Under the pieces are notes generated by a model, which saw nothing but the letters and a program-made list of their open reading frames with translations, made no database searches and was not told the origin of the DNA. The position numbers and the translations under genes are program-made. Positions 4,142-57,290 of a DNA stretch of 64,000 bases are shown here, in pieces. How positions within the stretch are numbered: the stretch's first letter is position 1; every line of letters begins with the position of its first letter. The stretch comes from Clytia hemisphaerica (Eukaryota > Cnidaria > Hydrozoa > Leptothecata > Clytiidae). The stretch spans positions 124,001-188,000 of the forward strand of contig CACVBU010001187.1 in NCBI GenBank assembly GCA_902728285.1. The letters are read 5' to 3'.

Positions 4142-6385
4142 TTAATCATGAGGGGGGTCAGGTAAGGTCATAGAACCTCTCTCATAGTGGTAACCTAGTT
4201 CCTTGATATCCATAAGCTCATTCCTATTCAAGTATTTTCCTGCCTTCTTGAACGGGTACAAATTCGTATCTGCGGTTAACACTTCATTCCCAGTTTGGTT
4301 TGGACTGGGTCCTTGACCATATTTGGGTTGCTCCCCTTTATCTGGCTTACTCATACCCATATCTACGTTATGAGCCCATTTCTCATACCAAAGCCAAAAA
4401 ACGCGATCTACATTTGACATATGCAAGAAGAAAAGCGGATCGAAAGCCGCCATTTCGTTTGATCCTAAATCACCATGGGAACCAGCAATTAAGGAAAACT
4501 CACCAGTCCCACCTAACGCTTGAAGCATCTGGATACTGGCCAGCTCAACACTGTGATTACCTGACTGGATGTTTGAGAACTTGTTATATTTTTCAACTTC
4601 CAAGCAATCCTTATAACTCTTGTGGATGGAATGCTTTAACGCATGTGTGATATTTTCTTGCAAATAAAAAGTTGGACTTTTTGGGAGATTATGATTGACA
4701 TAATCATTTTGGATTTTGGCGTTGAAGGTTTCTTGAAGTGGATTTTCAGGCTTCCTGAGCCCTGAGTATGGGTAACGACATGTTGTATAACCTGCGGGTT
4801 TGACATATTTTGATGTTGCTTGGGATAAAGGTATTGCTTTAGGAAGAGTGAATCCGAGAAGAGGGTTTGAAATCGTGGTTCCATCGTCATCAATCTCCAC
4901 AAATTCTTTTACCAAGAGATTTGGCAAAGGTGGTTCACCCTTTTTGATTATCTCTTTCCATGTTTCATCCCAGTAATGCAAAGCAACTAAATCTCCATCT
5001 TCAGGGGCATTTCTCACAAGAGCCTCCTCAAGATGTAAAAGATAAGCTCTGTACCAGGGGAGGAAAAGAACATTTTGGTGTTGGCTGTCAGCGCCCCACA
5101 TTTTAAGTGATTCTGGAGGAGTTGTTCTTGGATGTGTAAAAGGCTGACCATTAAAGGACGCAATTTTCCAATAAGAGTCCTCGTTCTCAGGTGGAAGATT
5201 TTTGATGACGTGGAAAGCTTTCAAAAAAGCATATCTTCTCTTACGATGCTTATCTTCTTCCAAGTCTCTTATTGCCATCCTAGGACGATTAAAAGATAAA
5301 TGAATATTATTACTTTGAAGAAAAAGAAGCAAGTACCTTATCAGTAGAAAATTCTTAGGTAAAAAACATTCAAATTTCGTCACTTTTTACTGACGAACAG
5401 TTTTTGCCGATAAATTTTTTTCTGGCTTAACATCGGCCTTATAGAGAAATCAAGGCTGAAAAACAAAGATAAACTGAGCAATTATTGCAATTATTGTCCT
5501 TTAAGCAGGAATAATTTAACAAGAAAGTATTAAAAAATTTTTAAACAAAAAAATTTTCAAAGTAACCGATAATCATTTGGTAAAAAATATTAACCGGCAA
5601 AAATTATCGCGGGCAAAAAAAAACGTCAGCTATAAAATTTAACGGTAAAACGATTTTCAAATCAATTTTTGCCGACGATAAAGTATAAAATATAAGGTAT
5701 TTTGGAGTCAAAATCTATTAGGCTCGGTATTATATTATTTGTAAAGCCTCCCTTAAACTATCATTTTCCTCAACTTTAAAAAAACAGCCTCGTTCGCAAG
5801 ATTTCCAGGTCTTTCCTGATCAGTCTTCAATTAAAGATTTGGAAACTCAAAAACAAGGTTTGAAACATAGATCGTACCTCTTTCTGATAATTTTCTCTTC
5901 ATCACTTTTGCTCTGATTATTCTGTAAAAAAAGTAATATATATTTTTTTATACACTACACGTTTTTTTTTTAAGAAACACACTTTTAAGAAACATAAGGC
6001 TCAGAATGCCTAAAAACTAAAAAAAACATCTAAGAAACATGCTGAGGCTGAGAATGAGAAAATAACGATTTTTAATTCGGTTTTTTTAAGAACCTTCCAA
6101 TGCAGCCTTCCATGAGGCTGATTATGTCAAAAAGTTTAGAAACATGTTAGAAACATTTAAGGCTCAAAAGGCCGATTTCTTAAGAAACATTGAGGCTGCT
6201 TGGTAAAACTAGTTTCTTTAAAAAAAAAAAAAACGTGTACGTTACGGCTAGGTGAATGATAGAGGAATAAAGAATTTCTTAAAATCTATTTTCGTTTGTA
6301 GGATTTATGAATAGTTACTAAGACTAGTGTCACAGACCCCCCCCCCCGTTATTTAGGTACTCTTATAATGAGTTCGACTTACCAT
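4142..6385 (-). CDS. Tyrosinase-domain protein with a degenerate copper site (probable pseudoenzyme)
   Basis: Three exons on the minus strand: 6383-6385 (only the ATG), 5878-5921 and 4142-5279. All junctions are GT-AG and in phase, giving 394 residues with no signal peptide, as in cytosolic-type tyrosinases. The fold signature is intact: RKRMAIRDL, SYWKIASFNGQPF, HQNVLFLPWYRAYLLHLE and AAFDPLFFLHMSNVDR match the family's type-3 copper blocks. The ligands are mostly gone. Site A has N59 instead of His, H83 kept and Y92 instead of the His in WHR. Site B has S264 and L268 instead of the HxxxH pair and M303 instead of the second His of LHH. Ordinary phenol oxidation is therefore unlikely. The frame is clean and splicing looks normal, so this is not an obvious pseudogene. 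It is transcribed in the same direction as the GPCR upstream. Its first intron is largely a MITE. Confidence 0.85.
5958..6237. mobile_element. MITE with CACG(T)n ends, in tyrosinase intron 1
   Basis: A 280-bp element starting CACGTTTTTTTTTT and ending AAAAAAAAAACGTG, flanked by TA on both sides (5956-5957 and 6238-6239), as expected for Tc1/mariner-type target duplication. The interior repeats the words AAGAAACAT and AGGCTGA. It occupies most of the 461-bp intron. A decayed relative without clear ends is at about 10500-10680. Its ends resemble the CACGCTTTTTTTTATAAG family at 17503 and 60837. Confidence 0.75.
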
Positions 6386-7295: not shown

Positions 7296-9677
7296 TCACC
7301 TTGATCGTATACTGTCAAAAATTTCTTTTCGAAACGATTCTTTCGTATTTCGATCAGCTCGAAAATAAACGATAAATACCATATAACCAATTTTGAAGAT
7401 CACATCAAACGCGTTAAACAGGGCTAACGCAAACAGTCGTACGGAAGCGCGATCGAGATCGGTTTTCTGTCCATACCATATAGGAAAGTGTACGGCGAGT
7501 AGTACAAATTTTAGAAAGGACGAATACAAAATACGTTTAGATTCGTTCAGATTTTTCGGCAATTTTCGTGCACGAAAGCACTGTATGAAAGAACCCAAAA
7601 CGATCAACATTAAATAACAGTTAAGACCTTTCATTTGGATGGTTACGTTACAATAAATCTCACGTCGTTTAGTTTCAGGATATATTGTTTCTTTAATCCA
7701 CTCATTCTGCGACCATGATATAAAGACACAAGACACGATGTAGAGTAGCTGAAAAAATACCAACGAGGAATAATGCATGGTTTGAGTTTTCTTAACATGA
7801 TTCTGTGATAAACGTCTCATTTGCTTGAAAATGTAAACAAATTTATGGCTTCTAGTTAGAGTGATTGTATTTGCAAATATCAAGAATGAGCCGGTTGCAC
7901 TAAACATCGGAATACATTTTGAGACCGTTGGTTTGCCGATAAATGTCAGAGGTAGGTTTATAGAGACGATCAGATGAGCACAGATTTGCGTAAGAGTCAA
8001 CGGGAGGTCTGAGGATCGGACAAGAGGTGTATCTCGTTTAACGATGAAAATAACAAGAGCGATACATAGAAACAATGATACAGCTCCATTGCAAAATATA
8101 AAGATGTAGATACTGTGCCTATCGAAGTTCAAATAATAATTCGTGTAGGGATCAATGCAAAAGGTTTTATCAGCATTTGGCTCAAAATATTGGGTACAAG
8201 CCTTACAAGAGTGATTACTATGCGATGATTTTGCATATCCGGGTTCGCATGGGATGCATTTCCATGCAAATGAAGTCCGGACAGGTGATACTTCCGTTGT
8301 TTTCATGTAAGATTCGTAGCCGGGTAGGCAAGATTTCCGGTTATAGAGACCATCATTTTGTTTACGGATTCGATTCAGTTCAGAAATCGGTGTTTTAGAT
8401 CTTATCGATGTTAACCTGCCAGACTTTAACACTCTGTATAGTACTCCTGAACTGAGTCTATGTATGTGGGATCGAACACGGGAAAGGGGCCATCTGAAAT
8501 GACACAGACGACGAACAGCTTGAGACCACCAAATAGGTAAAATAATAGCTTGAGAAACCTCTGAGCGCATACTGGTAGAAATATCCAATTTTTCAAGAGT
8601 AGAATTCGGATGATATTTTCTGTATAAATTGAACCAAGGATCATTGACTACCCAATCATATAATTGCTGCACATAGATAAAACTCTGCATATCTGAGAAA
8701 GTATACTTTCTATTCAGTGATTGATAAGCAAATAAAGGGTTGTTATGAAACATATGGGTTACCAGAGATGGTAGAGAAATGTTGTGTTGAAAGAATAGGT
8801 TGAAGGAAGTTTCTGAATACCAATACCATAATCTATCATCAATGTCATCAACATATTTGATAAATCGATCTCTAGAATCAAAATCTGACCATACTATAAT
8901 GGTATCAATTTGTTTATCGTATTTTAAAGTGTCCACTACTTTGTGAATCTCACTCACATTCTGCATGTTTAAGATCCATTTCATGACGGTGATGCTTTGC
9001 AAATCTACCATTTGTTGCCAGATTAAGTTTTGATGATATCTAGGGATTTGGTTGACGAGGTCATTCTCGATCAGCAATAATAAGACATGCGTTGTTTTGG
9101 TGTATTGAATTTCTTGGATAGATTGCTCTATCTCTCTATTGATCAAGTTGTATGTCGATAGTCCAAGGACATTGTCATAACCTTTTTCTTCCGTATAGGC
9201 CAAGAATGGTATGTCATATTTAGATGCTTTTAAAAGCTGACCAGTCAGTACTGTTAAAGACATTGGCATGAATGAGACTACTGCGATTATGTTTGATTTT
9301 GATTGGTCACCATCTTGGTAATAAAACCTTGTACCGATCAGTATTTGAAGTAGGATGCTTGTTAGTTTATCATGGCTTCCACAAACATTATACGCAATGA
9401 AGCCAACAGGTGTCTGACAGTTGTTCTTAGTCTTCAGTATTTGATAACTTTGCAATTCTCTCGCAGCCATATATCTTACTCTCATATGGAATCGTAAAAG
9501 TTGCTCGGAGATTGGATTGTTCATTGATGAGTTAAAAGAGACAAACGATATAACATTGTAAGTTCCATATTGTGAGATTTGAACTGGTACACCGTCATTG
9601 GGATCACAACCGAAAGCGAAAGTAAAAGTGATAAGTGACAGTATGGTGACAATATGCTTTGACCGATCCTGCAACAT
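7296..9677 (-). CDS. Class C (metabotropic glutamate receptor-like) GPCR, intronless
   Basis: One uninterrupted frame of 793 residues from the ATG at 9677. It has, in order, a signal peptide (about 1-24), a Venus-flytrap ligand-binding region (about 25-420), a Cys-rich linker with CIPCEPGY (about 455-510) and a seven-helix region (about 515-765). Class C hallmarks are the TPLVRSSD loop after TM1, the SKC extracellular cysteine before TM3, LTRSHKFVYIFK after TM3, HFPIWYG in TM6 and GYMVFIVYFR in TM7, which parallels the PKxYIILFRPE of mGluRs. It should be a plasma-membrane receptor coupled to G proteins. The ligand cannot be read from sequence: mGluR, calcium-sensing and taste/odorant-type receptors are all possible. 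Lack of introns suggests a retrocopy or a lineage with intron-poor class C receptors. There is no frameshift or premature stop. Confidence 0.85.
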   Translation of the reverse strand: MLQDRSKHIVTILSLITFTFAFGCDPNDGVPVQISQYGTYNVISFVSFNSSMNNPISEQLLRFHMRVRYMAARELQSYQILKTKNNCQTPVGFIAYNVCGSHDKLTSILLQILIGTRFYYQDGDQSKSNIIAVVSFMPMSLTVLTGQLLKASKYDIPFLAYTEEKGYDNVLGLSTYNLINREIEQSIQEIQYTKTTHVLLLLIENDLVNQIPRYHQNLIWQQMVDLQSITVMKWILNMQNVSEIHKVVDTLKYDKQIDTIIVWSDFDSRDRFIKYVDDIDDRLWYWYSETSFNLFFQHNISLPSLVTHMFHNNPLFAYQSLNRKYTFSDMQSFIYVQQLYDWVVNDPWFNLYRKYHPNSTLEKLDISTSMRSEVSQAIILPIWWSQAVRRLCHFRWPLSRVRSHIHRLSSGVLYRVLKSGRLTSIRSKTPISELNRIRKQNDGLYNRKSCLPGYESYMKTTEVSPVRTSFAWKCIPCEPGYAKSSHSNHSCKACTQYFEPNADKTFCIDPYTNYYLNFDRHSIYIFIFCNGAVSLFLCIALVIFIVKRDTPLVRSSDLPLTLTQICAHLIVSINLPLTFIGKPTVSKCIPMFSATGSFLIFANTITLTRSHKFVYIFKQMRRLSQNHVKKTQTMHYSSLVFFQLLYIVSCVFISWSQNEWIKETIYPETKRREIYCNVTIQMKGLNCYLMLIVLGSFIQCFRARKLPKNLNESKRILYSSFLKFVLLAVHFPIWYGQKTDLDRASVRLFALALFNAFDVIFKIGYMVFIVYFRADRNTKESFRKEIFDSIRSR

Positions 9678-11304
9678 TTTCAATTCTTATTGGTCAAATA
9701 TTTATACGATAAAAACTTTATTGAAATAATGACATCCAGATTTCATAAATGCATTGAGATGAAAAACACGACCAAATTGTTCAATACAAAACCGCTGATT
9801 CTCTTTCCGTAAAAATAATTTTGTGCGAATAAATCCATAAAAGACAAAATAACAGTTGTGCTGATTTATTATGACTCTGGAGACTTCAAGTTTCACAGCA
9901 GCTTTAAAATATTTTACTTCATATAACACTCAATTCTTACTTTTCACTGTAAAAATAATGTTTAGGATGTGTATGCGAATTTCCAATATGAAATTGTTGA
10001 AAAATTAGATCATGTCTTTAATTTCCTGTTGTATGCTTATTAGCTCAAGGCGATAAATCCAATATGCGATGTGGTTAGTTTAATCAAAGGTCCAAAAATT
10101 TTAATCAAAAGAAATTCTAAATTAAAAATTTCCAATTTGATTCCTGCTTTATTTTCAATTTCATGAATATTCCTTTGTTATTATTTTGATTAAAGTCCCT
10201 ACAGAATTCCTAAAATTCAAACCATCACACAATTATTTCTTTAACAATGGGAATTTTAATAATTGAAGAATCGTATTTATTCAGTATTAATCAAATTAAA
10301 AACCTTGTTTCAAATTTTGGGCCAACAAACACAAAAAAGGTGTGAAGATAGTGGAATGGGATAACCTTGTATGGTGATTGAAGTAAATAAACTTAATTTT
10401 ATTACATTATGATAAGTCGCCACTGGTGTATCGATCTCGCTGTGAGAAATTAGGAACTTTTTTGTTCGATGATTTCTGATAAACTGTCATAAATACATTT
10501 TTTTCCTAAGAAATTTTTTTAAAAAAGATCAGGGAGGCTCAATTTTCGAAAGAAATACAAGAAAAATCTTAGCCTCAGATTTCAGAAATGACTGAATATT
10601 TAAGCCTAAAAATCACAAAAAACAAGAACAGAACTTTACTGGCTCAAAGTTTGCTGATTCTTAAAACAAAGCACGAGGTTCCGCTAAGAGTATCTGGAAA
10701 TTAATTTGAGACTTTATATATTTGAATTACAGATACTAATATAATATATTCAATCCTTGTTTTGTTTCTATATACAGATTTAAAAAATGATCAAATGAAA
10801 AAAAACATTTCGAAGATCAATATACAATTTCTAAAAATAAAATTTTATCAAAGCAAAAGAAATATCACTCCGTTTTTTCGAGTCAGTCCAATACCATATC
10901 CCTATGGTTCTAAATAAGGCAATTTAAATCGATGGTTCAAATAAAACATAGAAGTCTTTTCTAAATTCCAAATACGATGAAATAGAGTGTATAATGGCGG
11001 AATTAGATGATCAATTTTAATTCATGTTTGATAGTTTTGTATCGTCCCTATATCAGCTCTAATTTTTCGCTGCTTCAATAAATTCCGGTAATTTTCAGTA
11101 AATCTTTCCGGTACACATTCCATTTAGAAAGACATTTGTCACGAAATTGTTTAAAATGCTCATATGGGAGGTTTCAGTTCGTAAGTACTGTAATTTAGTA
11201 AGGACTGGCGTTGTTTTTGGAATCACACACCTTCAGTTTTCTTACACTTACGTTGTAAGCTATCGTCCTAACTCCAAAGGCAAAATTTTCCAGCATCGAC
11301 GTAT
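9678..11304. other. Intergenic, no gene recognised
   Basis: AT-rich spacer between two minus-strand genes, presumably including the GPCR promoter. The part at about 10500-10680 has AAGAAAT and AGGCTCA words like the element at 5958-6237, probably a decayed copy. Short frames at 9702-9929 and 11147-11374 show no domain. Confidence 0.5.
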
Positions 11305-15653: not shown

Positions 15654-16326
15654 TGATTTTCCCATAAAGATTGGCGTTTGCCCTCTGTAAAGCTCTAAAA
15701 CAGCGGCCCTATTTCACATTGGAGATATTGTGAAGTTATAATACCGAAGTCTGAGATCAGGTGCGGTATTTTGAGTAAGCATGCCACCTGTGAGTCGCCC
15801 GTCAGCTTAACAAGAAGAAAGTAATTAAAATATAGGGAATGATAGCCGGCCTTGGAATGCCACCCAAGCATCCCAAGACATGTTCGACTACCTTTATGCG
15901 GGTAAGGCCTAAAATATTTCAGCTGAGCCGGCCAACATGGGGCCTCCCACTGTAATACTTGAGACGCTGTCAGGTGAAATCACATAATCTAAAACTTTCA
16001 GATGTTTTTAGTTATAATACTCTAAAGGCACATCTAGAAACAAATCTTGCGTCAAAATCTTTTTAACAGAGTCATAAGAGGAAAATTTAAACTTGGTAAA
16101 AACAAATTGTTTACAAACAGCATTTCCTTAACACTTGCCAGGAGAATCAATTAATTAATTGATTGATATTTCTAAATGACAGGCGTGTTTCCAACATTTC
16201 ATAAATCACTTTGTTTGCTTTAAGACGAAAATTAAAAAAAAAACATTTTACAAAATTCTTGTTTCCGATGTTGTAAAGATATGGTCTCTCGAAAATTTGG
16301 CAAAGACATTTGAACCTTAAGTAAAG
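15654..16326. other. GC-richer spacer left of the tandem array
   Basis: The part at about 15670-15990 is visibly richer in G and C than its surroundings, with two GCCGGCC words forming a potential stem around 15847 and 15926. No coding frame or known RNA was recognised. The part up to 16326 is ordinary AT-rich DNA. Confidence 0.4.
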
Positions 16327-16472
16327 ACTTAATGTGCTTAAGGGCACGCTACATGTATTTGTTTTTATTGACACTGAATTTAGGCTTTTTAAAACTCAAC
16401 ATGTCAAACTCTTTTTACAAACTTACGTCCACTTTACGTCCTCGAATTGAGGCTAACAATAAAATTTAAACG

Positions 16473-16755
16473 TAAGGCGAAAATAAAAAAAAGTGTAGTG
16501 CTTCCGGAATGCGGGTTAAGGAAAAAAGATCTCATGCGGCCGGCCGGAAAATTTTTTTTTGCTTTTTTTGATAACTTTAAGATCATTGAAATAGAACTTT
16601 AAAGATAACTTTTATGTACAAACAGTATGAAGTAAGCCCTGAATACTAATGTATCAACTACTAACAAACAAAACTTGATCTGCGGCCGGGTCAGAAAAAA
16701 CTTTTTGTTCACCCGGCCAGTTTCCGGAAACACTACATTTTTTTATTTTCGCCTA
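16473..16755. mobile_element. Foldback element with GGCGAAAATAAAA ends
   Basis: Inverted ends TAAGGCGAAAATAAAAA and TTTTTATTTTCGCCTA, with internal complementary blocks (GTGCTTCCGG, CGGCCGG and matching CCGGAAACA). The same element is at the corresponding place in copies 2 (about 20348-20630) and 3 (about 23934-24217), so it predates the amplification. Confidence 0.6.
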
Positions 16756-17213
16756 GAATGCATTTGTTATTGTTGATCCTCGGCTATTCTTATTTTTTAG
16801 TGAGTCTCATATCGTTAATGTCCTGGTTTTTATTTTAAGGGAGAAATTGTTTCTGTTAATTTGAACCTACTTTGCCCAAAATTAAGCTATTTTAAAATCA
16901 GGGTTGTTCTTAAAAGTTTTTTGCGTTTTTCGCTCCACTTGGGGCGCTTACACCCTAAATCGTGTGATTTGCTAACGTGACACTGTACTTTACTCAAAAC
17001 CTACATTCATTGAAGCAACTTGATTTACTCATCGTTTTTCGCAAATTTCATTAATTTCGCGGAGGCAAAATTTGCGCCACATATCTAATTAGCTACCCCC
17101 ACACACACACATAAACAAATTTATGACGTTTTGCTCTGTGTGCGTGACGTTGAAATAACAATAAACACAAACTCAATTTTGGGTAAAACGTATGTAATTA
17201 TTACAGTACTTAC

Positions 17214-18686
17214 GATTAAATTCCTGGCATAATTCACTTGTTTCCATGGAGATTGAATTCCTTTCTGTTACGTCATAGTTGAACCCACCTTTGAATGAAA
17301 AATAAACTATTATTCTTGTGATTTTGATATTCAGAGTATTAAAATCGACCAAGATAGAACAATTCACGATATTCATGACGTAATCTTAATCTTCCAAAAT
17401 ACACCAGACGTTTACTCTTAGGTTCCAAATAAACGGGCGGGGGGAACTAATTACCGGGGGGGTTGGAAATCGTGCTTCTGAAACCCAAAAGTAAGGTAAA
17501 TACACGCTTTTTTTTATAAGAATACACTTTATAAGAATGTCCATGATGAAAATGGGCAAAAAATTAAGAATATGGTAAGAATATCACCATCATTGAATTT
17601 AGCAACTGAACCTAAGAATGTCATTTTTAATGCATTTTAACCTGTAGATTGCCAATTTCGATCTTAACCTAAGAATACCGTAAGAATATTTTTGGATAAT
17701 TTTCGCCAAAAAGTTAAGAATATCCATGATGAAATGAAAAAACACCATTCTTGTAAAAAAAAAAGCGTGTATAGGCTAAAATCAGGCTATAAAATGAGGG
17801 GCCTTCTCTTTGACAGCTGATAATATTCTTAAAAATTAAGAAACGGGGGGAGGGGTCCTAATAAGGTCCAGGGGGGGGGGGTTGAAAAATTTTGGAACTT
17901 TTTTGGGTATTAAACAAAAGGATCACCAAGCAACAAACTGAAGTGCAGTAGCAGTAACATCTTAATTTCAACCTTCCATCAACCCCACGCAATTGTTACA
18001 TGATTTGAGGAGAATTCCCTCATATCAAATATATAATTTGGTCTTATATAAAAACTAGGTCATATATTTTTGTCTATAGTGATACCACAACGACCTTCAA
18101 CTATAGCCTAAATAAAACAGCCATAGCTTATATCTGACTGAGATCAGGGGGTAGGTCGAACGTTTAACAGAAAGTCGGGAAATCAAGATCGGGAGCCCAT
18201 TTATGTGTAAAATTCATTGCTAGTACCTTCGATCTACAAATAAGACGCTGTAGGCATGTTTTGCATAGCTTGCATATTTTGTCTTTGGATGAAGCACAGG
18301 GTGATATTTGAAGATACTTTTATTGTAAAACGGCAAGAGATGTGCAATCCACGATGCATACCTTTGCACGTTGTTTTCTTTATTTGGGTTTAAAGAGTGG
18401 CTTGTTGGTCTGAGTTGGTAAAAGATAGAAGGAAGTATTTAACGCTGAAAATTGCGTCGAATACCTTACTTCAATTTTGATAACTATCAGCCAAACAGGA
18501 AACCCATAGATAGTCATTAAATAAAGTTGATAATACCATCTTTTAGCTTTCGCATAAAGCATGTCGTGAAAACAGTAAAACAGTGAAACACTTTTCTTGG
18601 CAACTCTCCCAATGGCAGCAATCAACCCAGCAGTTATGTAATCCATCATAAAATACCACAAAACCACTTTCAAAATAAACTTCAAC
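17214..18686 (-). pseudogene. Unidentified membrane-protein gene, copy 1, with a mutated splice acceptor
   Basis: Exons at 18465-18686, 18227-18361 and 17214-17288 on the minus strand. The first two are identical in reading to copies 2 and 3: a two-helix hydrophobic segment (KFILKVVLWYFMMDYITAG, then YQLYLMTIYGFPVWLIVI), followed by YASWIAHLLPFYNK. In the third exon the acceptor that reads CATTCAG|AGG in the other copies reads CATTCAAAGG here. The first usable AG is two bases further on. Splicing there shifts the frame and meets a stop after a few codons. Copy 1 therefore probably encodes a truncated product. Upstream and downstream exons were not found, so this could equally be an incomplete gene fragment in all three copies. 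Confidence 0.45.
17503..17769. mobile_element. MITE with CACGCTTTTTTTTATAAG ends, copy 1 only
   Basis: 267 bp, starting CACGCTTTTTTTTATAAG and ending AAAAAAAAAGCGTG, flanked by TA (17501-17502, 17770-17771). Copies 2 and 3 read straight through as GGTAAATATAGGC, so the empty site is visible and the TA duplication is proven. The interior repeats AAGAAT, CATCATGG and complements. The same family is at 60837-61112. Confidence 0.9.
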
Positions 18687-19354
18687 CTATAAATAAAGAG
18701 GAAAAAAGAATTCTACTTAAAATGCATGATTCATTAATCAGTAATTTAGAGCAATCTTTATCGAACCATTTAGTTGAAGACAGTACAGATTCATACCGGG
18801 TGTGCCAAAGATACATCGAAATGTAAACTTGTTAAGCATGTTAAGCGTGTTAAACGTGACTTAAGAAAAAGAACGAGGGATGGGAAAATACTAGGGGCTA
18901 TAACCTGACAGTAACAAAAAAAGATACATCGTAGAATACCTGTTAATAACACGAAGTACGAATTAGACGGAAAGGTGATATGAGAAGGTTAGCTACAGAA
19001 TATTGTATTATGATGAATATTGTCATTTATATCTTTGAAGTAAGTTGTTTAAATTGTTGGTCCCGCCCCTTAACCGCGACCCACGCTAAGATTATAGCCC
19101 AACCGACCTTATCTAACTTTATCACCCTCAGATAAAAGTTCTATAATAATAAAAGGCCATTGAAGCGAAGGTCTTTAATTGTGAATTTAAATTTCACAAA
19201 TTTGGAAAATCTTAAAATAACTTACTAACTGTTAAGGGATATCTTCAGACGTTGTCATTTCTCATATTGTTATGTCTTTACTGCTGCGTGTGAAAGGATG
19301 AAATATACACATTAATACGAAGAAAAGACTTCAAAAATCGAGTGGGACATGATA

Positions 19355-20184
19355 CCGGGTGCGCCACAAAAAAGTTTCTCTCTTTAAAACTAATTTTCTA
19401 GGAATCTAAAAGCTTTAAAAGAACCATTCCTATTTCATTGGAAAGAAGAAAGATAAACTTAAATTTTGATGGGTCATTTATTGAATTCGATTCATTAGAT
19501 CAAAAGTTATGCTCAATTGAATAAAAAAGTTACTTTCAGAAAGTGCTCGAAAACGTCGAAAATCGACCTATCAAATTTTTAGATTAAAATTGGTAATTGC
19601 AATAGCCTTTACATGATTAAAAGCATTTTTCAGTAATTTAAACACATAAATTTCGAAACTGAAATGCCGAAAGGGTTTAAATCTTCATCAAAATCACTTT
19701 AATTTATTTTTACCGAAAATTTTCTCCGATTTTTGGTTTTAGATTGGATAAAGTTTATGTAAGGCCGGATATATCTCGAAAGCCATATTTCATGGATTTT
19801 TATGAATTTTACCAGATTTTTTGGCCTTTTTGAACAAATGTTCCTCCTTGTATTGAGATACAACCTTCCTTTACATAACAAAAGGTCATTTAGACAGCTA
19901 ATTATCATTTTTAATGACTGAAACGAAGATAATGATGTATTATGTAATTATGCTTCTGTTTAATTTGATAGGTAAAATTTTAACGTTTTTGAGCACTTTC
20001 AGAAAGTAACTTTTTTATTTAATTGAGCATAAATTTTGATCTAATGAATCGAATTCAATAAATGACCCATCAAAATTTAAGTTTATCTTTCTTCTTTCCA
20101 ATGAAATAAGAATAGTTTTTTTTTAATTTTTAGATTTCTAGAAAATTAGTTTTAAAGAGAGAAACTTTTTTGTGGCGCACCCGG
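19355..20184. mobile_element. 830-bp TIR element, in copy 1
   Basis: It begins CCGGGTGCGCCACAAAA and ends with the complement. Inverted arms are about 205 bp with few mismatches. It is flanked by TA on both sides. Copy 3 has the empty site (GACATGATAGTATAG near 26515-26530), which shows a two-base TA duplication as in Tc1/mariner elements. A 69-codon minus-strand frame at 19699-19908 shows no transposase motif, so it is non-autonomous. Confidence 0.9.
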
Positions 20185-21064
20185 TAGTATAGTAGGTCAA
20201 CTTAATGTGCTTAAGGGCACGCTACATGTATTTGTTTTTATTGACACTGAAGTTAGGCTTTTTACGAACTCAACATGTCAAATTCTTTTTACAAACTTAC
20301 GTCCACTTTACGTCCTCGAATTGAGGCTATCAATAAAATTTAAACGTAAGGCGAAAATAAAAAAAAGTGTGGTGCTTCCGGAATGCGGGTGAAGGAAAAA
20401 AGCTCTCATGCGGCCGGCCGGAAAATTTTTTTTGTTGCTGTTTTTGATAACTTAAGATCATTGAAATAGAACTCTAAAGATAACTTTTATGTAAAAACAG
20501 TATAAAGCAAGCCCTGAATACTAATGTATCAACTACTAACAAACAAAAATTGATCTGCGGCCGGGTCAGAAAAACTTTTTGTTCACCCGGCCGGCTTCCG
20601 GAAACAATGCATTTTTTATTTTCGCCTAGAACACATTTTTTTTTTGTTGATCCTCGGCTATTCTTATTTTTTGGTGAGTTTCATATCGTTAATGTCCTGT
20701 TTTTTATTTTAAGGGGGAAATTGTTTCTGTTAATTTGAACCTACTTTGCCCAAAATTAAGCTATTTCAGATTTAGGGTCACCCACTTGGGGCGCTCGCAC
20801 CCTACATCATATCATTGGCTAACGTGACACTGTACTTTACTCAAAACCTACATTCATTCAAGCAACTTCCTTGATTTACTCATCGTTTTTCGCAAATTTC
20901 ATTAATTTCGCGGAGGCAAATTTTGCGCCACATATCTAATTAGCTACCCCCACACACAAATGTGAACAAATTTATGACGTTTTGCTCTGTGTGCGTGACG
21001 TTGAAATAACAATAAAAACAAACTCAATTTTGGGTAAAACGTATATAATTATTACAGTACTTAC

Positions 21065-22272
21065 GATGAAATTCCTGGCATAATTCACTTGTTTCCATGG
21101 AGATTGAATTCCTTTCTGTTACGTCATAGTTGAGCCAACCTCTGAATGAAAAATAAACTATGATTAGATTCTTTTGATTTTGATATTCAGAGTGTTAAAA
21201 TCGACCAAGATAGAACAATTCACGATATTCATGACGTAATCTTAATCTTCCGAAATACACCAGACGTTTACTCTTAGGTTCCAAATAAACGGGCGGGGGG
21301 AACTAATTACCGGGGGGTTGGAAATCGTGCTTCTGAAACCCAAAAGTAAGGTAAATATAGGCTAAAATCAGGCTATAAAATGAGGGGCCTTCTCTTTGAC
21401 AGCTGAAAATATTCTTAAAAATTAAGAAACGGGGGGAGGGGTCCTAATAAGGTCCAGGGGGGGGGGGTTGAAAATTTTGGAACTTTTTTGGGGTATTAAA
21501 CAAAAGGATCACCAAGCAACAAACTGAAGTGCAGTAGCAGTAACATCTTAATTTCAACCTTCCATCAACCCCACGCAATTGTTACATGATTTGAGGAGAA
21601 TTCCCTCATATCAAATACATAATTTGGTCTTACATAAAAACTAGGTCATATATTTTTGTCTATAGTGATACCACAACGACCTTCAACTATAGCCTAAATA
21701 AAACAGCCATAGCTTATATCTGACTGAGATCAGGGGGTAGGTCGAACGTTTAACAGAAAGTCGGGAAATCAAGATCGGGAGCCCATTTATGTGTAAAATT
21801 CATTGCTAGTACCTTCGATCTACAAATAAGACGCTGTAGGCATGTTTTGCATAGCTTGCATATTTTGTCTTTGGATGAAGCACAGGGTGATATTTGAAGA
21901 TACTTTTATTGTAAAACGGCAAGAGATGTGCAATCCACGATGCATACCTTTGCACGTTGTTTTCTTTATTTGGGTTTAAAGAGTGGCTTGTTGGTCTGAG
22001 TTGGTAAAAGATAGAAGGAAGTATTTAACGCTGAAAATTGCGTCGAATACCTTACTTCAATTTTGATAACTATCAGCCAAACAGGAAACCCATAGATAGT
22101 CATTAAATAAAGTTGATAATACCATCTTTTAGCTTTCGCATAAAGCATGTCGTGAAAACAGTAAAACAGTGAAACACTTTTCTTGGCAACTCTCCCAATG
22201 GCAGCAATCAACCCAGCAGTTATGTAATCCATCATAAAATACCACAAAACCACTTTCAAAATAAACTTCAAC
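21065..22272 (-). CDS. Unidentified two-helix membrane protein, copy 2 (partial exon set)
   Basis: Three exons in phase: 22051-22272, 21813-21947 and 21065-21141, with GT-AG borders (acceptors TTTATAG|G, CAAAG|G, CATTCAG|A; donors AAG|GTATTC, AAG|GTACTA, ATC|GTAAGT). Together they encode about 144 residues: two membrane-spanning stretches, then a polar part with PFYNKSIFKYHPVLHPKTKY and VDRRGWLNYDVTERNS. The first exon starts in phase 2 and the last ends in phase 1, so more exons must exist on both sides or the gene is a fragment. I do not recognise the family. Clean frames in exons A and B across copies favour real coding sequence. Confidence 0.5.
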
Positions 22273-22940
22273 CTATAAATAAAGAGGAAAAAAGAATTCT
22301 ACTTAAAATGCATGATTCATTAATCAGTAATTTAGAGCAATCTTTATCGAACCATTTAGTTGAAGACAGTACAGATTCATACCGGGTGTGCCAAAGATAC
22401 ATCGAAATGTAAACTTGTTAAGCATGTTAAGCGTGTTAAACGTGACTTAAGAAAAAGAACGAGGGATGGGAAAATACTAGGGGCTATAACCTGACAGTAA
22501 CAAAAAAAGATACATCGTAGAATACCTGTTAATAACACGAAGTACGAATTAGACGGAAAGGTGATATGAGAAGGTTAGCTACAGAATATTGTATTATGAT
22601 GAATATTGTCATTTATGTCTTTGAAGTAAGTTGTTTAAATTGTTGGTCCCGCCCCTTAACCGCGACCCACGCTAAGATTATAGCCCAACCGACCTTATCT
22701 AACTTTATCACCCTCAGATAAAAGTTCTATAATAATAAAAGGCCATTGAAGCGAAGGTCTTTAATTGTGAATTTAAATTTCACAAATTTGGAAAATCTTA
22801 AAATAACTTACTAACTGTTAAGGGATATCTTCAGACGTTGTCATTTCTCATATTGTTATGTCTTTACTGCTGCGTGTGAAAGGATGAAATATACACATTA
22901 ATACGAAGAAAAGACTTCAAAAATCGAGTGGGACATGATA

Positions 22941-23770
22941 CCGGGTGCGCCACAAAAAAGTTTCTCTCTTTAAAACTAATTTTCTAGGAATCTAAAAGCT
23001 TTAAAAGAACCATTCCTATTTCATTGGAAAGAAGAAAGATAAACTTAAATTTTGATGGGTCATTTATTGAATTCGATTCATTAGATCAAAAGTTATGCTC
23101 AATTGAATAAAAAAGTTACTTTCAGAAAGTGCTCGAAAACGTCGAAAATCGACCTATCAAATTTTTAGATTAAAATTGGTAATTGCAATAGCCTTTACAT
23201 GATTAAAAGCATTTTTCAGTAATTTAAACACATAAATTTCGAAACTGAAATGCCGAAAGGGTTTAAATCTTCATCAAAATCACTTTAATTTATTTTTACC
23301 GAAAATTTTCTCCGATTTTTGGTTTTAGATTGGATAAAGTTTATGTAAGGCCGGATATATCTCGAAAGCCATATTTCATGGATTTTTATGAATTTTACCA
23401 GATTTTTTGGCCTTTTTGAACAAATGTTCCTCCTTGTATTGAGATACAACCTTCCTTTACATAACAAAAGGTCATTTAGACAGCTAATTATCATTTTTAA
23501 TGACTGAAACGAAGATAATGATGTATTATGTAATTATGCTTCTGTTTAATTTGATAGGTAAAATTTTAACGTTTTTGAGCACTTTCAGAAAGTAACTTTT
23601 TTATTTAATTGAGCATAAATTTTGATCTAATGAATCGAATTCAATAAATGACCCATCAAAATTTAAGTTTATCTTTCTTCTTTCCAATGAAATAAGAATA
23701 GTTTTTTTTTAATTTTTAGATTTCTAGAAAATTAGTTTTAAAGAGAGAAACTTTTTTGTGGCGCACCCGG
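22941..23770. mobile_element. 830-bp TIR element, in copy 2
   Basis: Essentially identical to the element at 19355-20184, at the identical position in the unit, so it was copied with the unit rather than inserted independently. TA flanks at 22939-22940 and 23771-23772. Confidence 0.9.
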
Positions 23771-23785
23771 TAGTATAGTAGGTCA

Positions 23786-26539
23786 ACTTAATGTGCTTAA
23801 GGGCACGCTACATGTATTTGTTTTTATTGACACTGAAGTTAGGCTTTTTACGAACTCAACATGTCAAATTCTTTTTACAAACTTACGTCCACTTTACGTC
23901 CTCGAATTGAGGCTATCAATAAAATTTAAACGTAAGGCGAAAATAAAAAAAAGTGTGGTGCTTCCGGAATGCGGGTGAAGGAAAAAAGCTCTCATGCGGC
24001 CGGCCGGAAAATTTTTTTTGTTGCTGTTTTTGATAACTTAAGATCATTGAAATAGAACTCTAAAGATAACTTTTATGTAAAAACAGTATAAAGCAAGCCC
24101 TGAATACTAATGTATCAACTACTAACAAACAAAAATTGATCTGCGGCCGGGTCAGAAAAAACTTTTTGTTCACCCGGCCGGCTTCCGGAAACAATGCATT
24201 TTTTTATTTTCGCCTAGAACACATTTTTTTTTTGTTGATCCTCGGCTATTCTTATTTTTTGGTGAGTTTCATATCGTTAATGTCCTGTTTTTTATTTTAA
24301 GGGGGAAATTGTTTCTGTTAATTTGAACCTACTTTGCCCAAAATTAAGCTATTTCAGATTTAGGGTCACCCACTTGGGGCGCTCGCACCCTACATCATAT
24401 CATTGGCTAACGTGACACTGTACTTTACTCAAAACCTACATTCATTCAAGCAACTTCCTTGATTTACTCATCGTTTTTCGCAAATTTCATTAATTTCGCG
24501 GAGGCAAATTTTGCGCCACATATCTAATTAGCTACCCCCACACACAAATGTGAACAAATTTATGACGTTTTGCTCTGTGTGCGTGACGTTGAAATAACAA
24601 TAAAAACAAACTCAATTTTGGGTAAAACGTATATAATTATTACAGTACTTACGATGAAATTCCTGGCATAATTCACTTGTTTCCATGGAGATTGAATTCC
24701 TTTCTGTTACGTCATAGTTGAGCCAACCTCTGAATGAAAAATAAACTATGATTAGATTCTTTTGATTTTGATATTCAGAGTGTTAAAATCGACCAAGATA
24801 GAACAATTCACGATATTCATGACGTAATCTTAATCTTCCGAAATACACCAGACGTTTACTCTTAGGTTCCAAATAAACGGGCGGGGGGAACTAATTACCG
24901 GGGGGTTGGAAATCGTGCTTCTGAAACCCAAAAGTAAGGTAAATATAGGCTAAAATCAGGCTATAAAATGAGGGGCCTTCTCTTTGACAGCTGAAAATAT
25001 TCTTAAAAATTAAGAAACGGGGGGAGGGGTCCTAATAAGGTCCAGGGGGGGGGGTTGAAAATTTTGGAACTTTTTTGGGGTATTAAACAAAAGGATCACC
25101 AAGCAACAAACTGAAGTGCAGTAGCAGTAACATCTTAATTTCAACCTTCCATCAACCCCACGCAATTGTTACATGATTTGAGGAGAATTCCCTCATATCA
25201 AATACATAATTTGGTCTTACATAAAAACTAGGTCATATATTTTTGTCTATAGTGATACCACAACGACCTTCAACTATAGCCTAAATAAAACAGCCATAGC
25301 TTATCTGACTGAGATCAGGGGGTAGGTCGAACGTTTAACAGAAAGTCGGGAAATCAAGATCGGGAGCCCATTTATGTGTAAAATTCATTGCTAGTACCTT
25401 CGATCTACAAATAAGACGCTGTAGGCATGTTTTGCATAGCTTGCATATTTTGTCTTTGGATGAAGCACAGGGTGATATTTGAAGATACTTTTATTGTAAA
25501 ACGGCAAGAGATGTGCAATCCACGATGCATACCTTTGCACGTTGTTTTCTTTATTTGGGTTTAAAGAGTGGCTTGTTGGTCTGAGTTGGTAAAAGATAGA
25601 AGGAAGTATTTAACGCTGAAAATTGCGTCGAATACCTTACTTCAATTTTGATAACTATCAGCCAAACAGGAAACCCATAGATAGTCATTAAATAAAGTTG
25701 ATAATACCATCTTTTAGCTTTCGCATAAAGCATGTCGTGAAAACAGTAAAACAGTGAAACACTTTTCTTGGCAACTCTCCCAATGGCAGCAATCAACCCA
25801 GCAGTTATGTAATCCATCATAAAATACCACAAAACCACTTTCAAAATAAACTTCAACCTATAAATAAAGAGGAAAAAGAATTCTACTTAAATGCATGATT
25901 CATTAATCAGTAATTTAGAGCAATCTTTATCGAACCATTTAGTTGAAGACAGTACAGATTCATACCGGGTGTGCCAAAGATACATCGAAATGTAAACTTG
26001 TTAAGCATGTTAAGCGTGTTAAACGTGACTTAAGAAAAAGAACGAGGGATGGGAAAATACTAGGGGCTATAACCTGACAGTAACAAAAAAAGATACATCG
26101 TAGAATACCTGTTAATAACACGAAGTACGAATTAGACGGAAAGGTGATATGAGAAGGTTAGCTACAGAATATTGTATTATGATGAATATTGTCATTTATA
26201 TCTTTGAAGTAAGTTGTTTAAATTGTTGGTCCCGCCCCTTAACCGCGACCCACGCTAAGATTATAGCCCAACCGACCTTATCTAACTTTATCACCCTCAG
26301 ATAAAAGTTCTATAATAATAAAAGGCCATTGAAGCGAAGGTCTTTAATTGTGAATTTAAATTTCACAAATTTGGAAAATCTTAAAATAACTTACTAACTG
26401 TTAAGGGATATCTTCAGACGTTGTCATTTCTCATATTGTTATGTCTTTACTGCTGCGTGTGAAAGGATGAAATATACACATTAATACGAAGAAAAGACTT
26501 CAAAAATCGAGTGGGACATGATAGTATAGTAGGTCAACT
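23786..26539. repeat. Tandem unit, copy 3
   Basis: 2754 bp, shorter because it lacks the 830-bp element. It ends with the same TAGTATAGTAGGTCAAC that closes the other units, after which unique sequence leads into the TTC14 3' end. Small private indels include loss of AT in CTTATCTGAC near 25302 and AAATGCATG near 25889. Confidence 0.95.
24653..25857 (-). CDS. Unidentified two-helix membrane protein, copy 3 (partial exon set)
   Basis: Exons 25636-25857, 25398-25532 and 24653-24729 on the minus strand, encoding the same peptide as copy 2 with an intact CATTCAG acceptor before the third exon. As in copy 2, the reading phases at both outer borders require further exons that I could not find. Those on the upstream side would lie to the right, toward 26540 and beyond, if the array is where the gene was amplified. 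The product contains two hydrophobic helices and a short Lys/Arg/Tyr-rich part. Function unknown. Confidence 0.5.
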
Positions 26540-39070: not shown

Positions 39071-39119
39071 TGTTCAGAGCTGTTTTTGGTATTTCTTGCT
39101 GTTTTTGAGGGAGTCCATT

Positions 39120-40150
39120 CAGCCTAGACTAATGTTAAATTTCGTTTCTGCGCAAATTCGTCACATTTTGTCTCGATAGCCTCATACCTACGGAACCTAT
39201 CCTTAGAGGCAATCAAGCAAGAACAATAGAAAAAATCTTTATTTGGCTCTGTAGAAAAATTGAAAAATAGAAACTCGCTTAAATTCACAATACTGATTCT
39301 TTACCCCAAAGCGAAACTTTTCTATTTTGTAAATCTTTCTTACACTTCCCCATACGTAAAATAAAGAGTACTTTCGTTTTCCCCCCAAACCTACGAGGGA
39401 AAAAAGTTAAGACCGCGTGTTGTCCTCGCGGACTTTCCCAGCGTAATTTATTTGTGTGATGTCATAATGTTATTGTTCTCTTTCTCAGATTATTACTGAC
39501 GGCATTTCAATCGCTTACGGGATTGGACAATGGTTGACAATAGATCGTGACGTATAACAATCCAATGACGCGCGACGAATGAAAGTTCATTTTGGGTGGC
39601 TTGATAACACTCGTAATTTCTTTATTTTTCTAGTGTATTTTGTTTTTTCGTTTTAGAAGAAGGACTATACAGTAGAAAATAAGGTTTTATACTATTATTT
39701 TTAAATTTGATATTTTAAATGCCTATTTTAAAGAAAATTTCGTAAGTGGGCGGAAAATAAAAACGCCTTTGTTTTGAACGCCCGACTGCCAAAATCTCAG
39801 GATTCTGGGACTTCTTTTGAGACAGGGGCTAGACATGAAAACAAAGAACTAAGTAGAATCGACTTTTTGAAACTTGAAATACAATGTAAAATATTTTTGT
39901 AATCAAAAATTATATTTAACAATTATATTGAAAAGTAATAATTCGTTATAAGGAAAGATAACTTGTGCGGAAAAGAAATTCTTCATTTATTGACCCCCGG
40001 ATTTTTCATCGCATAATTTCTACGGGAAATCGAAAGTAATTTCATTTGGCTTGTGATGTTTGAGAGATTGGATGTTGGGAAGCTGCAAGGATAAAGGTAA
40101 ACAAATTATAGTCTTTTTTCTGAAAGAAAAATTAACATTAGTCTAGGCTG
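39120..40150. mobile_element. CAGCCTAGACTAATG TIR element, copy A
   Basis: 1031 bp with inverted ends CAGCCTAGACTAATGTTAA, flanked by the 5-bp direct repeat CCATT (39115-39119 and 40151-40155). It is the reverse complement of copy B at 41469-42514, with only scattered differences. It includes a CCGCGTGTTGTCCTCGCGG block. No transposase frame. Confidence 0.85.
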
Positions 40151-41251: not shown

Positions 41252-42539
41252 ATTAACTACCGTGAGATTGGGTAACTTGCATCAGTGGAGGCTAAGATGC
41301 ATAGCCCCAAAATAAAAGACCTGGCTGGTCATTAAAATACAACTACGCAACTCCGCTCACAGCTCTACTCTACCATTTTTGTTTTGATTTAACTTTGTAT
41401 TTTAATGACCAGCCAGGTCTTTCATTTGAGGGCTATGCATGTTAGCCTCCACTGATGCAAGTTACCCACAGCCTAGACTAATGTTAATTTTTCTTTCAGA
41501 AAAAGACTATAATTTGTTTACCTTTATTCCTGCAGCTTCCCAACATCCAAGCTCTCAAACATCACAAGCCAAATGGAATTACTTTCGATTTCCCGTAGAA
41601 ATTATTCGATGAAAAATCCGGGGGTCAAAGAATGAAGACTTTTTATTTCCGAACAAGTTATCTAATTGCTTATAACGAAATATTACTTTTCAATATATTT
41701 GCTAAATATAATGTTTGATTACAAAAATACTTTACACTGTATTTAAAGTTTGAAAAAGTCGATTCTACTATTCTACTTAGCTCTTTGTTTTCATGTCTAA
41801 CCCCCGTCTCAAAAGAAGTCCCAGAATCCCGAGATTTTTGCAGCCGGGCGTTCAAAACAAGGCGTTTTTATTTTTCCACCCACTTACGAATTTTTCTTTA
41901 TAATAGGTATTTAAAATATCAAATTTAAAAATAATAGTATAAAACCTTATTTTCTACCGTATATATAGTATTTCTTCTAAAACGAAAAAACAAAATACAC
42001 TAGAAAAATAAAGAATTTACGAGTGTTATCAAGCCACCCAAAATGAACTTTCATTCGTCCGCGTCATCGAATTGTTGTATATACGTCACGATCAATTGTC
42101 AACCATTGTCCAATCCCGTAAGCGATTGAAGTGCCGTCAGTAATAATCTGAGAAGAGAACAATAACATTATGACATCACACAAATAAATTACGCTGGGAA
42201 AGTCCGCGAGGACAACACGCGGTCTTAACTTTTTCCCTCGTAAGTTTGGGGGGAAAACGAAAGTACTCTATATTTTACGTATGGGGAAGTGTAAGAAAGA
42301 TTTACAAAATAGAAAAGTTTCGTTTTGGGGTAAAGAATCAGTATTGTGAATTTAAGCGAGTTTCTATTTTGCAATTTTTCTACAGAGCCAAATAAAGATT
42401 TTTTCTATTGTTTTTGCTCGATTGCCTCTAACGATAAGTTCGGTAGTTATGAGGTTATCGAGATAAAATGTGAGGAATTTGCGCGGAAACGAAATTCAAC
42501 ATTACTCTAGGCTGACCCAATCGCACGGTAACAGTTAGG
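41252..42539. mobile_element. Foldback element split by a younger insertion
   Basis: The left arm (about 41252-41345: CCGTG(A/C)GATTGGGTAACTT, then CATCAGTGGAGGCTAA and GCATAGCCC) pairs with a right arm at 41400-41468 that resumes after the inserted element at 42515 (ACCCAATCGCACGG). The interruption duplicated ACCCA. A diverged relative with CAGTGGGGAGAAAC and GCATAGCCCTCAAATGCAT begins at about 45290. Confidence 0.75.
41469..42514. mobile_element. CAGCCTAGACTAATG TIR element, copy B (inverted)
   Basis: 1046 bp with ends CAGCCTAGACTAATGTTAA and the complement of a slightly mutated end (ACATTACTCTAGGCTG), flanked by the 5-bp repeat ACCCA (41464-41468, 42515-42519). It is inserted inside the foldback element around it and lies in the opposite orientation to copy A, 1.3 kb away. 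Confidence 0.85.
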
Positions 42540-45870: not shown

Positions 45871-46715
45871 CACTCAGGCACGGATTTTTCACTTATATCC
45901 TTAGGATCCTGAGCATCCTCAGGCTTTTAGAGGATATCCTCAGGATCCTCTGTTTTGCCTTGGTTTGATAAAACATCAATATTATAATTTCCCAAGGATC
46001 CTTAGGGTCCTCAGGCTTTTGCGAGGATAACCTGAGGATCCTCACCTTTTTTTCTTTTTTTCTCAAAATATGAACCTTAGGATTCTTAGGGTCCTCAGGA
46101 TATTGCAAGGATATCCTCAGGATCCTCAAAAATTTATTTTACGTCAATTATTTCTCATTAAAGAAAGTGAATCTTAGGATCCTTAGGATCCTCAGGCTTT
46201 CCCAAGGATATCCTCAGGATCCTCAAAAAAAGAATAAAAAAAGTGAGGATCCTCAGGATATCCTTGCAAAATCCTGAGGACCCTAAGGATCCTAAGGTTC
46301 ATATTTTGAGAAAAAAAGAAAAAAAAGTGAGGATCCTCAGGTTATCCTCGCAAAAGCCTGAGGACCCTAAGGATCCTAAGGTTCATATTTTGAGAAAAAA
46401 GAAAAAAAAAGTGAGGATCCTCAGGTTATCCTCGCAAAAGCCTGAGGACCCTAAGGATCCTAAGGTTCATATTTTGAGAAAAAAAGAAAAAAAAGTGAGG
46501 ATCCTCAGGTTATCCTCGCAAAAGCCTGAGGACCCTAAGGATCCTAAGGTTCATATTTTGAGAAAAAAAGAAAAAAAAGTGAGGATCCTCAGGTTATCCT
46601 CGCAAAAGCCTGAGAACCCTAAGGATCCTAAGGTTCATATTTTGAGAAAATACAAAAAAAGGTGAGGATATCCTCAGGATCCGGAGGATAAATGTGAAAA
46701 ATCCGTGCTTAGCTC
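45871..46715. mobile_element. TIR element with mirrored AGGATCCT tandem array, 8-bp duplication
   Basis: The ends include GCACGGATTTTTCAC and its complement. The flanks are the exact 8-bp repeat TTTGACTT (45863-45870, 46716-46723), which suggests a hAT-type insertion. Inside, a unit of about 83 bp (GAGGATCCTCAGGTTATCCT, GAGGACCCTAAGGATCCTAA, then TTCATATTTTGAG and a poly-A/G tract) is tandem at least four times at 46240-46660. Partial copies in inverted orientation occupy 45893-46220. The 140-codon open frame across the array is a repeat artefact. Confidence 0.8.
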
Positions 46716-54869: not shown

Positions 54870-55345
54870 AGTGTGATTTTTTTCGTGCCTTGCGTGCCTT
54901 CGTGCCCTTCGTGCCTTTTGAAAAAAAGTTCGTGCCTTTCGAAAAAAAGTTCGTGCCTTTTAAAAAAAGTTCGTGCCTTTGAAAAAAAAGTTCGTGCCTT
55001 TCGAAAAAAAGTTCGTGCCTTTCGAAAAAAAGTTCGTGTCTTTCGAAAAAAAGTTCGTGCCTTTCGAAAAAAAGTTCGTGCCTTTCGAAAAAAAGTTCGT
55101 GCCTTTCGAAAAAGAAGTTCGTGCCTTTCGAAAAAGAAGTTCGTGCCTTTTGAAAAAAAGTTCGTGCCTTTGAAAAAAAAGTTTGTGCCTTTCGAAAAAA
55201 AGTTCGTGCCTTTCGAAAAAAAGTTTGTGCCTTTTTAAAAAAAATTCGTGCCTTCAAAAAAAAAGTTCGTGCCTTTTGAAAAAAAGTTCGTGCCTTTTGA
55301 AAAAAAATTCGTGCCTTTGATTTGAAAAGAAAGTTCGTACCTTTT
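54870..55345. repeat. 21-bp satellite array (left)
   Basis: About 20 tandem copies of AAAGTTCGTGCCTTTCGAAAA, with variants in the TTTCG/TTTTG part. It is preceded by a head TTCGTGCCTTGCGTGCCTT and GTGTGATTTTTT. All six-frame open frames here are repeat artefacts. Confidence 0.9.
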
Positions 55346-55645
55346 CAAAAATAGTTAATGTTAATGACAAACAAAATAACCAGCTAACCAGCAGCGATTT
55401 TTTGAGGTGGCGCCGAAAAGGAAGGGGCGCAAAAAAGGCTCTTCACAAAACACTGATTTCAGAGCCCCTTTCCCCTTTTTACCTCACAAACGACAGTTTT
55501 TAGCCCTATAAAATAGAGATATGTCGAAAAAAAATGTTTGCGCTTTTCGCTTGCCTTCATTTTTTACAATTTTTCCTAAGGGGCGCCAAATTGCCAATAT
55601 TTTACTATTTTGCCTCCATCCCTGCAGTGTTTGCCAAGCCACCAC

Positions 55646-56929: not shown

Positions 56930-57290
56930 AAAGGCACGAACTTTTTTTCAAAAGGCACGAAATTTTTTTTCAAAGGCACGAACTTTTTTTCAAAAGGCAC
57001 GAACTTTTTTTCGAAAGGCACGAAATTTTTTTTCAAAGGCACGAACTTTTTTTCAAAAGGCACGAACTTTTTTTCGAAAGGTACGAACTTTTTTTCAAAA
57101 GGCACGAACTTTTTTTCGAAAGGCACGAACTTTTTTTCAAAAGGCACGAACTTTTTTTCGAAAGGCACGAACTTTTTTTCAAAAGGCACGAACTTTTTTT
57201 CGAAAGGTACGAACTTTTTTTCAAAAGGCACGAACTTTTGTTCGAAAGGCACGAAGGGCACGCAAGGCACGAAAAAATCACACTCAACTG
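56930..57290. repeat. 21-bp satellite array (right, inverted)
   Basis: About 15 tandem copies of GGCACGAACTTTTTTTCAAAA, the reverse complement of the array at 54870-55345, with the head (GGCACGCAAGGCACGAAAAA, TCACACTC) at its right end. The two arrays thus face outward 1.6 kb apart. Confidence 0.9.

Follow-up and report, generated by a model that had tools for sequence, protein, structure and literature searches.

In the anti-3.7 triplication of human alpha-globin, the middle copy is a hybrid. The passages of PMC10620506 that concern this rearrangement describe how two tandem copies become three by crossover between misaligned homologous segments. The array that we report here, from the hydrozoan Clytia hemisphaerica, also reads as a triplication by misaligned crossover, in the manner of the alpha-globin case as those passages present it (PMC10620506). 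The alpha-globin units, however, are genes with a dosage effect, whereas the unit here, seen in one assembly, yielded no gene that belongs to a known family. A second parallel is the Sdic array of Drosophila melanogaster, which PMC7475035 presents as young and tandem, with copy-number variation and differing transposon insertions, and as shaped by non-allelic homologous recombination together with widespread gene conversion. Sdic is a gene family studied across many strains, whereas our array lies in apparently non-coding DNA of a single assembly.

The window, by which we mean the whole stretch of DNA that was analyzed, spans 64,000 nucleotides (contig C818, positions 124001-188000, in a genome of 417 Mb and 951 contigs). 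An earlier note on this DNA had described a tandem triplication within it, and a repeat search, a BLAST self-comparison and an alignment of the units with MAFFT, from which the 830-bp elements had been removed, all confirmed three tandem copies, at 16330-20202 (copy 1), 20203-23788 (copy 2) and 23789-26539 (copy 3). Each unit divides into two parts, L on the left and R on the right, all on the plus strand. Copy 1 has a divergent left part, La (16330-18047), followed by R1 (18048-19352); copy 2 has a left part of the type found in copy 3 (20203-21633), followed by R2 (21634-22938); and copy 3 consists of Lb (23789-25220) and R3 (25221-26521). One novel junction, GGTCAACTTAATG, occurs at both internal boundaries (20195 and 23781) and nowhere else in the window. 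The first duplication junction, GGTCAACT/TAATG, occupies 20195-20207 on the plus strand and recurs, within the window, at 23781 only, where the second junction (23781-23793, plus strand) is identical to it in sequence. The outer flanks of the array are single and differ from one another (left at 16323, right at 26532). The last bases of the left flank are AAAGACT and those of copy 3 are GTCAACT, after which the sequence continues CTTTT, so that the original join used a 3-bp overlap, ACT, which is found at 16327-16329, immediately 5′ of copy 1.

In the left part, copy 2 belongs with copy 3, as had been claimed. These two copies differ by 0 substitutions in 1433 bp and have in common the larger indels (27, 5, 4 and 2 bp) that the MAFFT alignment reveals relative to copy 1, whereas copy 1, over its left part to 18047, differs from copy 2 by 64 substitutions in 1421 bp and from copy 3 by 64 in 1422 aligned bp. 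The right part is nearly uniform: copies 1 and 3 show no substitution over 1301 bp, copies 2 and 3 show 1 over the same length, and copies 1 and 2 show 1 over 1305 bp. All of these substitution counts omit the 830-bp element and the flank columns before 16327. When R, the element and the tail are taken together, copies 1 and 2 show 1 difference in 2153 bp.

The minor differences among the copies number seven, and every one of them is private to a single copy. Copy 2 accounts for three: at 20569 and 20611 a homopolymer differs in length by one base, and at 22617 there is a substitution. Copy 3 accounts for four, which comprise a one-base difference in the length of a G run at 25044, in its left part, and three short right-hand indels that set copies 1 and 2 apart from copy 3 (TA at 18129/21715, and one A each at 18702/22288 and 18719/22305). 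The earlier note had seen copy-1 variants on the right of copy 2. The affinity itself stands on the identical 830-bp element, but the variants in question are the three indels, which can equally be read as losses in copy 3 and are no mark of copy-1 ancestry. Since each minor difference is private to one copy, only the 830-bp element ties the right end of copy 2 to copy 1. Copy 2 thus combines the left of the last copy with the right of the first, with one switch between them, its right end being assigned by the element. The switch must fall within R2; the narrower placement previously proposed, about 21640-21715, was drawn from the TA indel alone and is not upheld, the safe interval being 21634-22938, or 21634-21715 if the TA is trusted. 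A clean two-block pattern is broken at 20569, 20611, 25044 and 22617.

The 830-bp element is an inverted-repeat (fold-back, MITE-like) element with TA on both sides. It lies at 19355-20184 after copy 1 and at 22941-23770 after copy 2, the two being identical throughout the 834 bp compared, and copy 3 carries an empty TA target at 26522-26523, after which the tail runs to 26539. Its ends are 223-bp terminal inverted repeats, 92.4% identical as reverse complements, and its choice of a TA target presumably resembles that of Tc1/mariner elements. As single-stranded DNA it folds into a structure far stabler than those of 20 shuffles (z -33), as expected for an inverted repeat of such build. The family is dispersed in the genome: among the best 40 of 1558 first-look candidates, which were scored, 2 lie in the array and 38 elsewhere, the latter with 90-98% identity over about 800-850 bp. 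Full-length matches with flanking TA on both sides were found at 13 of 15 fetched family sites (11 of 13 outside the array), and the remaining two (L022 and L028) match in part only. The end of the element had no exact match in the viral contigs scanned. We also observed that CCGGGTGTGCCA, which occurs within R at 18796, 22382 and 25965, resembles the end of the element; in copies 1 and 2 it is followed by the start of the element about 560 bp downstream.

The two array elements are identical, whereas even the closest family member among the 38 scored outside the array departs from them by 18 mismatches, from which it follows that they descend from one insertion. Independent insertions after copies 1 and 2, which would have had to bring an identical 830 bp to the same TA, were rejected on this comparison. 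Given the empty TA in copy 3, the duplication came first and the insertion second, unless an element once present there was lost tracelessly.

The order of left types and elements along the array is La with the element in copy 1, Lb with the element in copy 2 and Lb without it in copy 3. This combination, together with the repeated junction, is the expected product of a crossover between copies 3 and 1 of a two-copy array, and an unequal crossover of this kind is the simplest single event. In the series of steps that we propose, a segment of about 2.75 kb would have been duplicated in tandem through an illegitimate join at the 3-bp microhomology ACT, and the 830-bp element would next have inserted in the end of copy 1. 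Copy 1 would already have carried its divergent left half when copies 3 and 1 underwent a misaligned homologous crossover within their near-identical right halves, giving a three-copy array in which the middle unit would be Lb-R-element and the junction would occur twice. The 1.3 kb over which R1 and R3 are free of substitutions offer ample substrate for homologous crossover. We regard duplication, element insertion and then crossover between copies 3 and 1 as the best explanation of the array, and would give it about an even chance of being right. The sequence relations are observed; the order of the events, and their meiotic or sister-chromatid setting, we infer. The crossover between copies 3 and 1 that the earlier note had proposed is thus retained as an account of how left types and elements are combined and of the identical junctions, but its interval was too narrow, the right-hand variants cited for it are all private to copy 3, and a second exchange is needed.

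The need for a second exchange comes from an abrupt fall in divergence between copies 1 and 3, from 4.5% up to 18047 to 0 substitutions in the next 1301 bp, which the earlier note had overlooked. If sites are assumed independent, the chance of finding 0 substitutions in 1301 bp at the left-hand rate is ~1e-26, which rules out uniform divergence with a chance gap and requires a further exchange. Either two old copies had their R homogenized ahead of the crossover, or a young array acquired La from a divergent allele through an exchange in copy 1 that could predate or postdate the triplication. If La arrived after the triplication, the mosaic is copy 1 rather than copy 2; the drop at 18047 can let either copy pass for one, and an assembly that changed phase there would give the same picture. 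Selection over all 1.3 kb of R is unlikely to be the cause of its sameness, given the null Pfam, RNA-family, tRNA and structure searches described below, though it is possible for part of R. Judged by substitutions, the duplication appears no older than the triplication: R1 and R3 (0 substitutions) are no more diverged than R1 and R2 (1). The private differences in R, the extra exchange needed and the lack of visibly greater age for the duplication all count against the crossover account.

Further evidence on the history of L comes from the other elements that it contains. A 269-bp insertion peculiar to copy 1 lies at 17501-17769 and consists of an inverted-repeat-ended element at 17503-17769 with TA on both sides; it is absent from copies 2 and 3, and its family is 95-98% alike elsewhere in the genome. 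With copy 1 (R included) as the genome query, the matches outside the array among the best 40 of 5129 candidates were the 269-bp element and short adjoining pieces of L, and none of these best 40 was a match to R outside the array. Contigs C250 and C374 carry short relatives, 83-91% identical, of the L stretches that flank the insertion (17413-17508 and 17771-17897), close to members of the 269-bp family, and on C250 the two stretches adjoin without the insertion. When most of Lb was used as the query, the outside-array matches among the best 40 of 1561 candidates corresponded to an older inverted-repeat-ended element, which lies inside L of all copies at about 16475-16755 and has 37 other scored places in the genome, at 82-88% identity. 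Within this old element, 14 columns differ between La and Lb, and comparison with five family members indicated that Lb had changed at 9 and La at 3, with 2 unclear; this polarization does not decide between paralogue and allele.

These observations bear on an explanation in which copy 1, rather than copy 2, is the mosaic. A young array made up entirely of Lb-R units would have reached three copies, and La would later have replaced the left half of copy 1 along with the flank to its left. Either an allelic crossover of the ordinary kind or, if the primary assembly is a mosaic of haplotypes, a switch from one to the other would have brought about the replacement, whose right end would fall between 18047 and 18129. 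Such a history accounts, without gene conversion, for R1, R2 and R3 being equally close (0 or 1 substitution in ~1.3 kb) when La alone is 4.5% off; La also bears its private insertion, from a family 95-98% alike elsewhere, and La and Lb have both changed in the old element, as long-separated alleles or paralogues would. It requires, however, an allelic difference of ~4.5%, and a second haplotype of the locus was not found among the best 40 of the 5129 first-look candidates, which is a weak argument against it. On balance, we think it unlikely, if credible, that copy 1 is the mosaic.

We also weighed an assembly artefact, in which the true locus would have two copies (La-R-element-Lb-R) and the assembler walked the R-element-Lb loop once too often. 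A double walk would yield exactly this arrangement, with near-perfect copies, and the two left parts L2 and L3 and the two right parts R1 and R2 differ in all by three one-base homopolymer indels and one substitution. A plain re-walk would duplicate one copy, however, and the array has a private substitution (22617) and two one-base indels in copy 2 and three indels in R3, although the weight of this objection is slight; the contiguity of the assembly, 417 Mb in 951 contigs, moreover suggests long reads. We therefore find an artefact of this kind rather doubtful. False haplotype duplication as the whole explanation was rejected, since both internal boundaries bear the same new junction rather than repeated flanks.

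Replication-based mechanisms often leave microhomology, and the 3-bp overlap at the junction would be in keeping with a passage from two to three copies by template switching or break-induced replication rather than by reciprocal crossover; the second step needs no new junction, however, and the two junctions are the same sequence, as from homologous exchange, which makes such a mechanism very improbable here.

As for coding content, there are 32 open frames of at least 45 residues, 8 of which were scanned against Pfam. None of these 8 reached the cut-off, and four weak matches (E 0.047 to 0.19) were taken as chance. Searches of the window found no tRNA, and no RNA family reached its gathering score. 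Within R, the longest frame (110 residues, at 18380-18712 on the minus strand) recurs in copies 2 and 3, and by eye it has splice-like ends at about 18470-18686; it may be a candidate exon present three times. It had no Pfam match, and its two solved-structure matches (E 0.67) were taken as chance. In copy 3, a pyrimidine-rich stretch just upstream of this frame is one base shorter.

Elsewhere in the window, a frame with a tyrosinase domain lies at 4142-5386 on the minus strand, the best of its 40 solved-structure matches being tyrosinase 5zrd (E 5e-47). A single open frame resembling a class C receptor lies at 7296-9686, also on the minus strand (796 residues, 7tm_3), and its best solved-structure match is metabotropic glutamate receptor 1 (E 1e-16). 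The two frames suggest, in keeping with the source, that the DNA is that of an animal. Other repeats were seen as well: an inverted pair of about 1 kb at 39119-40150 and 41469-42515 (92.6% identical), a tandem array of ~85-bp units at 45899-46678 with inverted relatives adjoining, and two arrays with a spacing of ~21 bp, at 54908-55356 and 56930-57255, which are in opposite orientation with about 1.6 kb between them.

A fold-back element with hairpin arms of more than 220 bp might itself provoke breaks or fork stalling, and so drive expansion and homogenization of the array. We hold this to be improbable; if true, insertion of the element would have converted a quiet duplication into a growing array. 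The array is likeliest to represent a neutral copy-number change. It is a fresh instance of an already known and ordinary process, and it leaves the general view of tandem duplication unchanged. What it offers is a clean textbook case, to which the short indels add little, in which the passage from one copy to two and then to three can be read from a single sequence through one transposon insertion and the empty site in the last copy.
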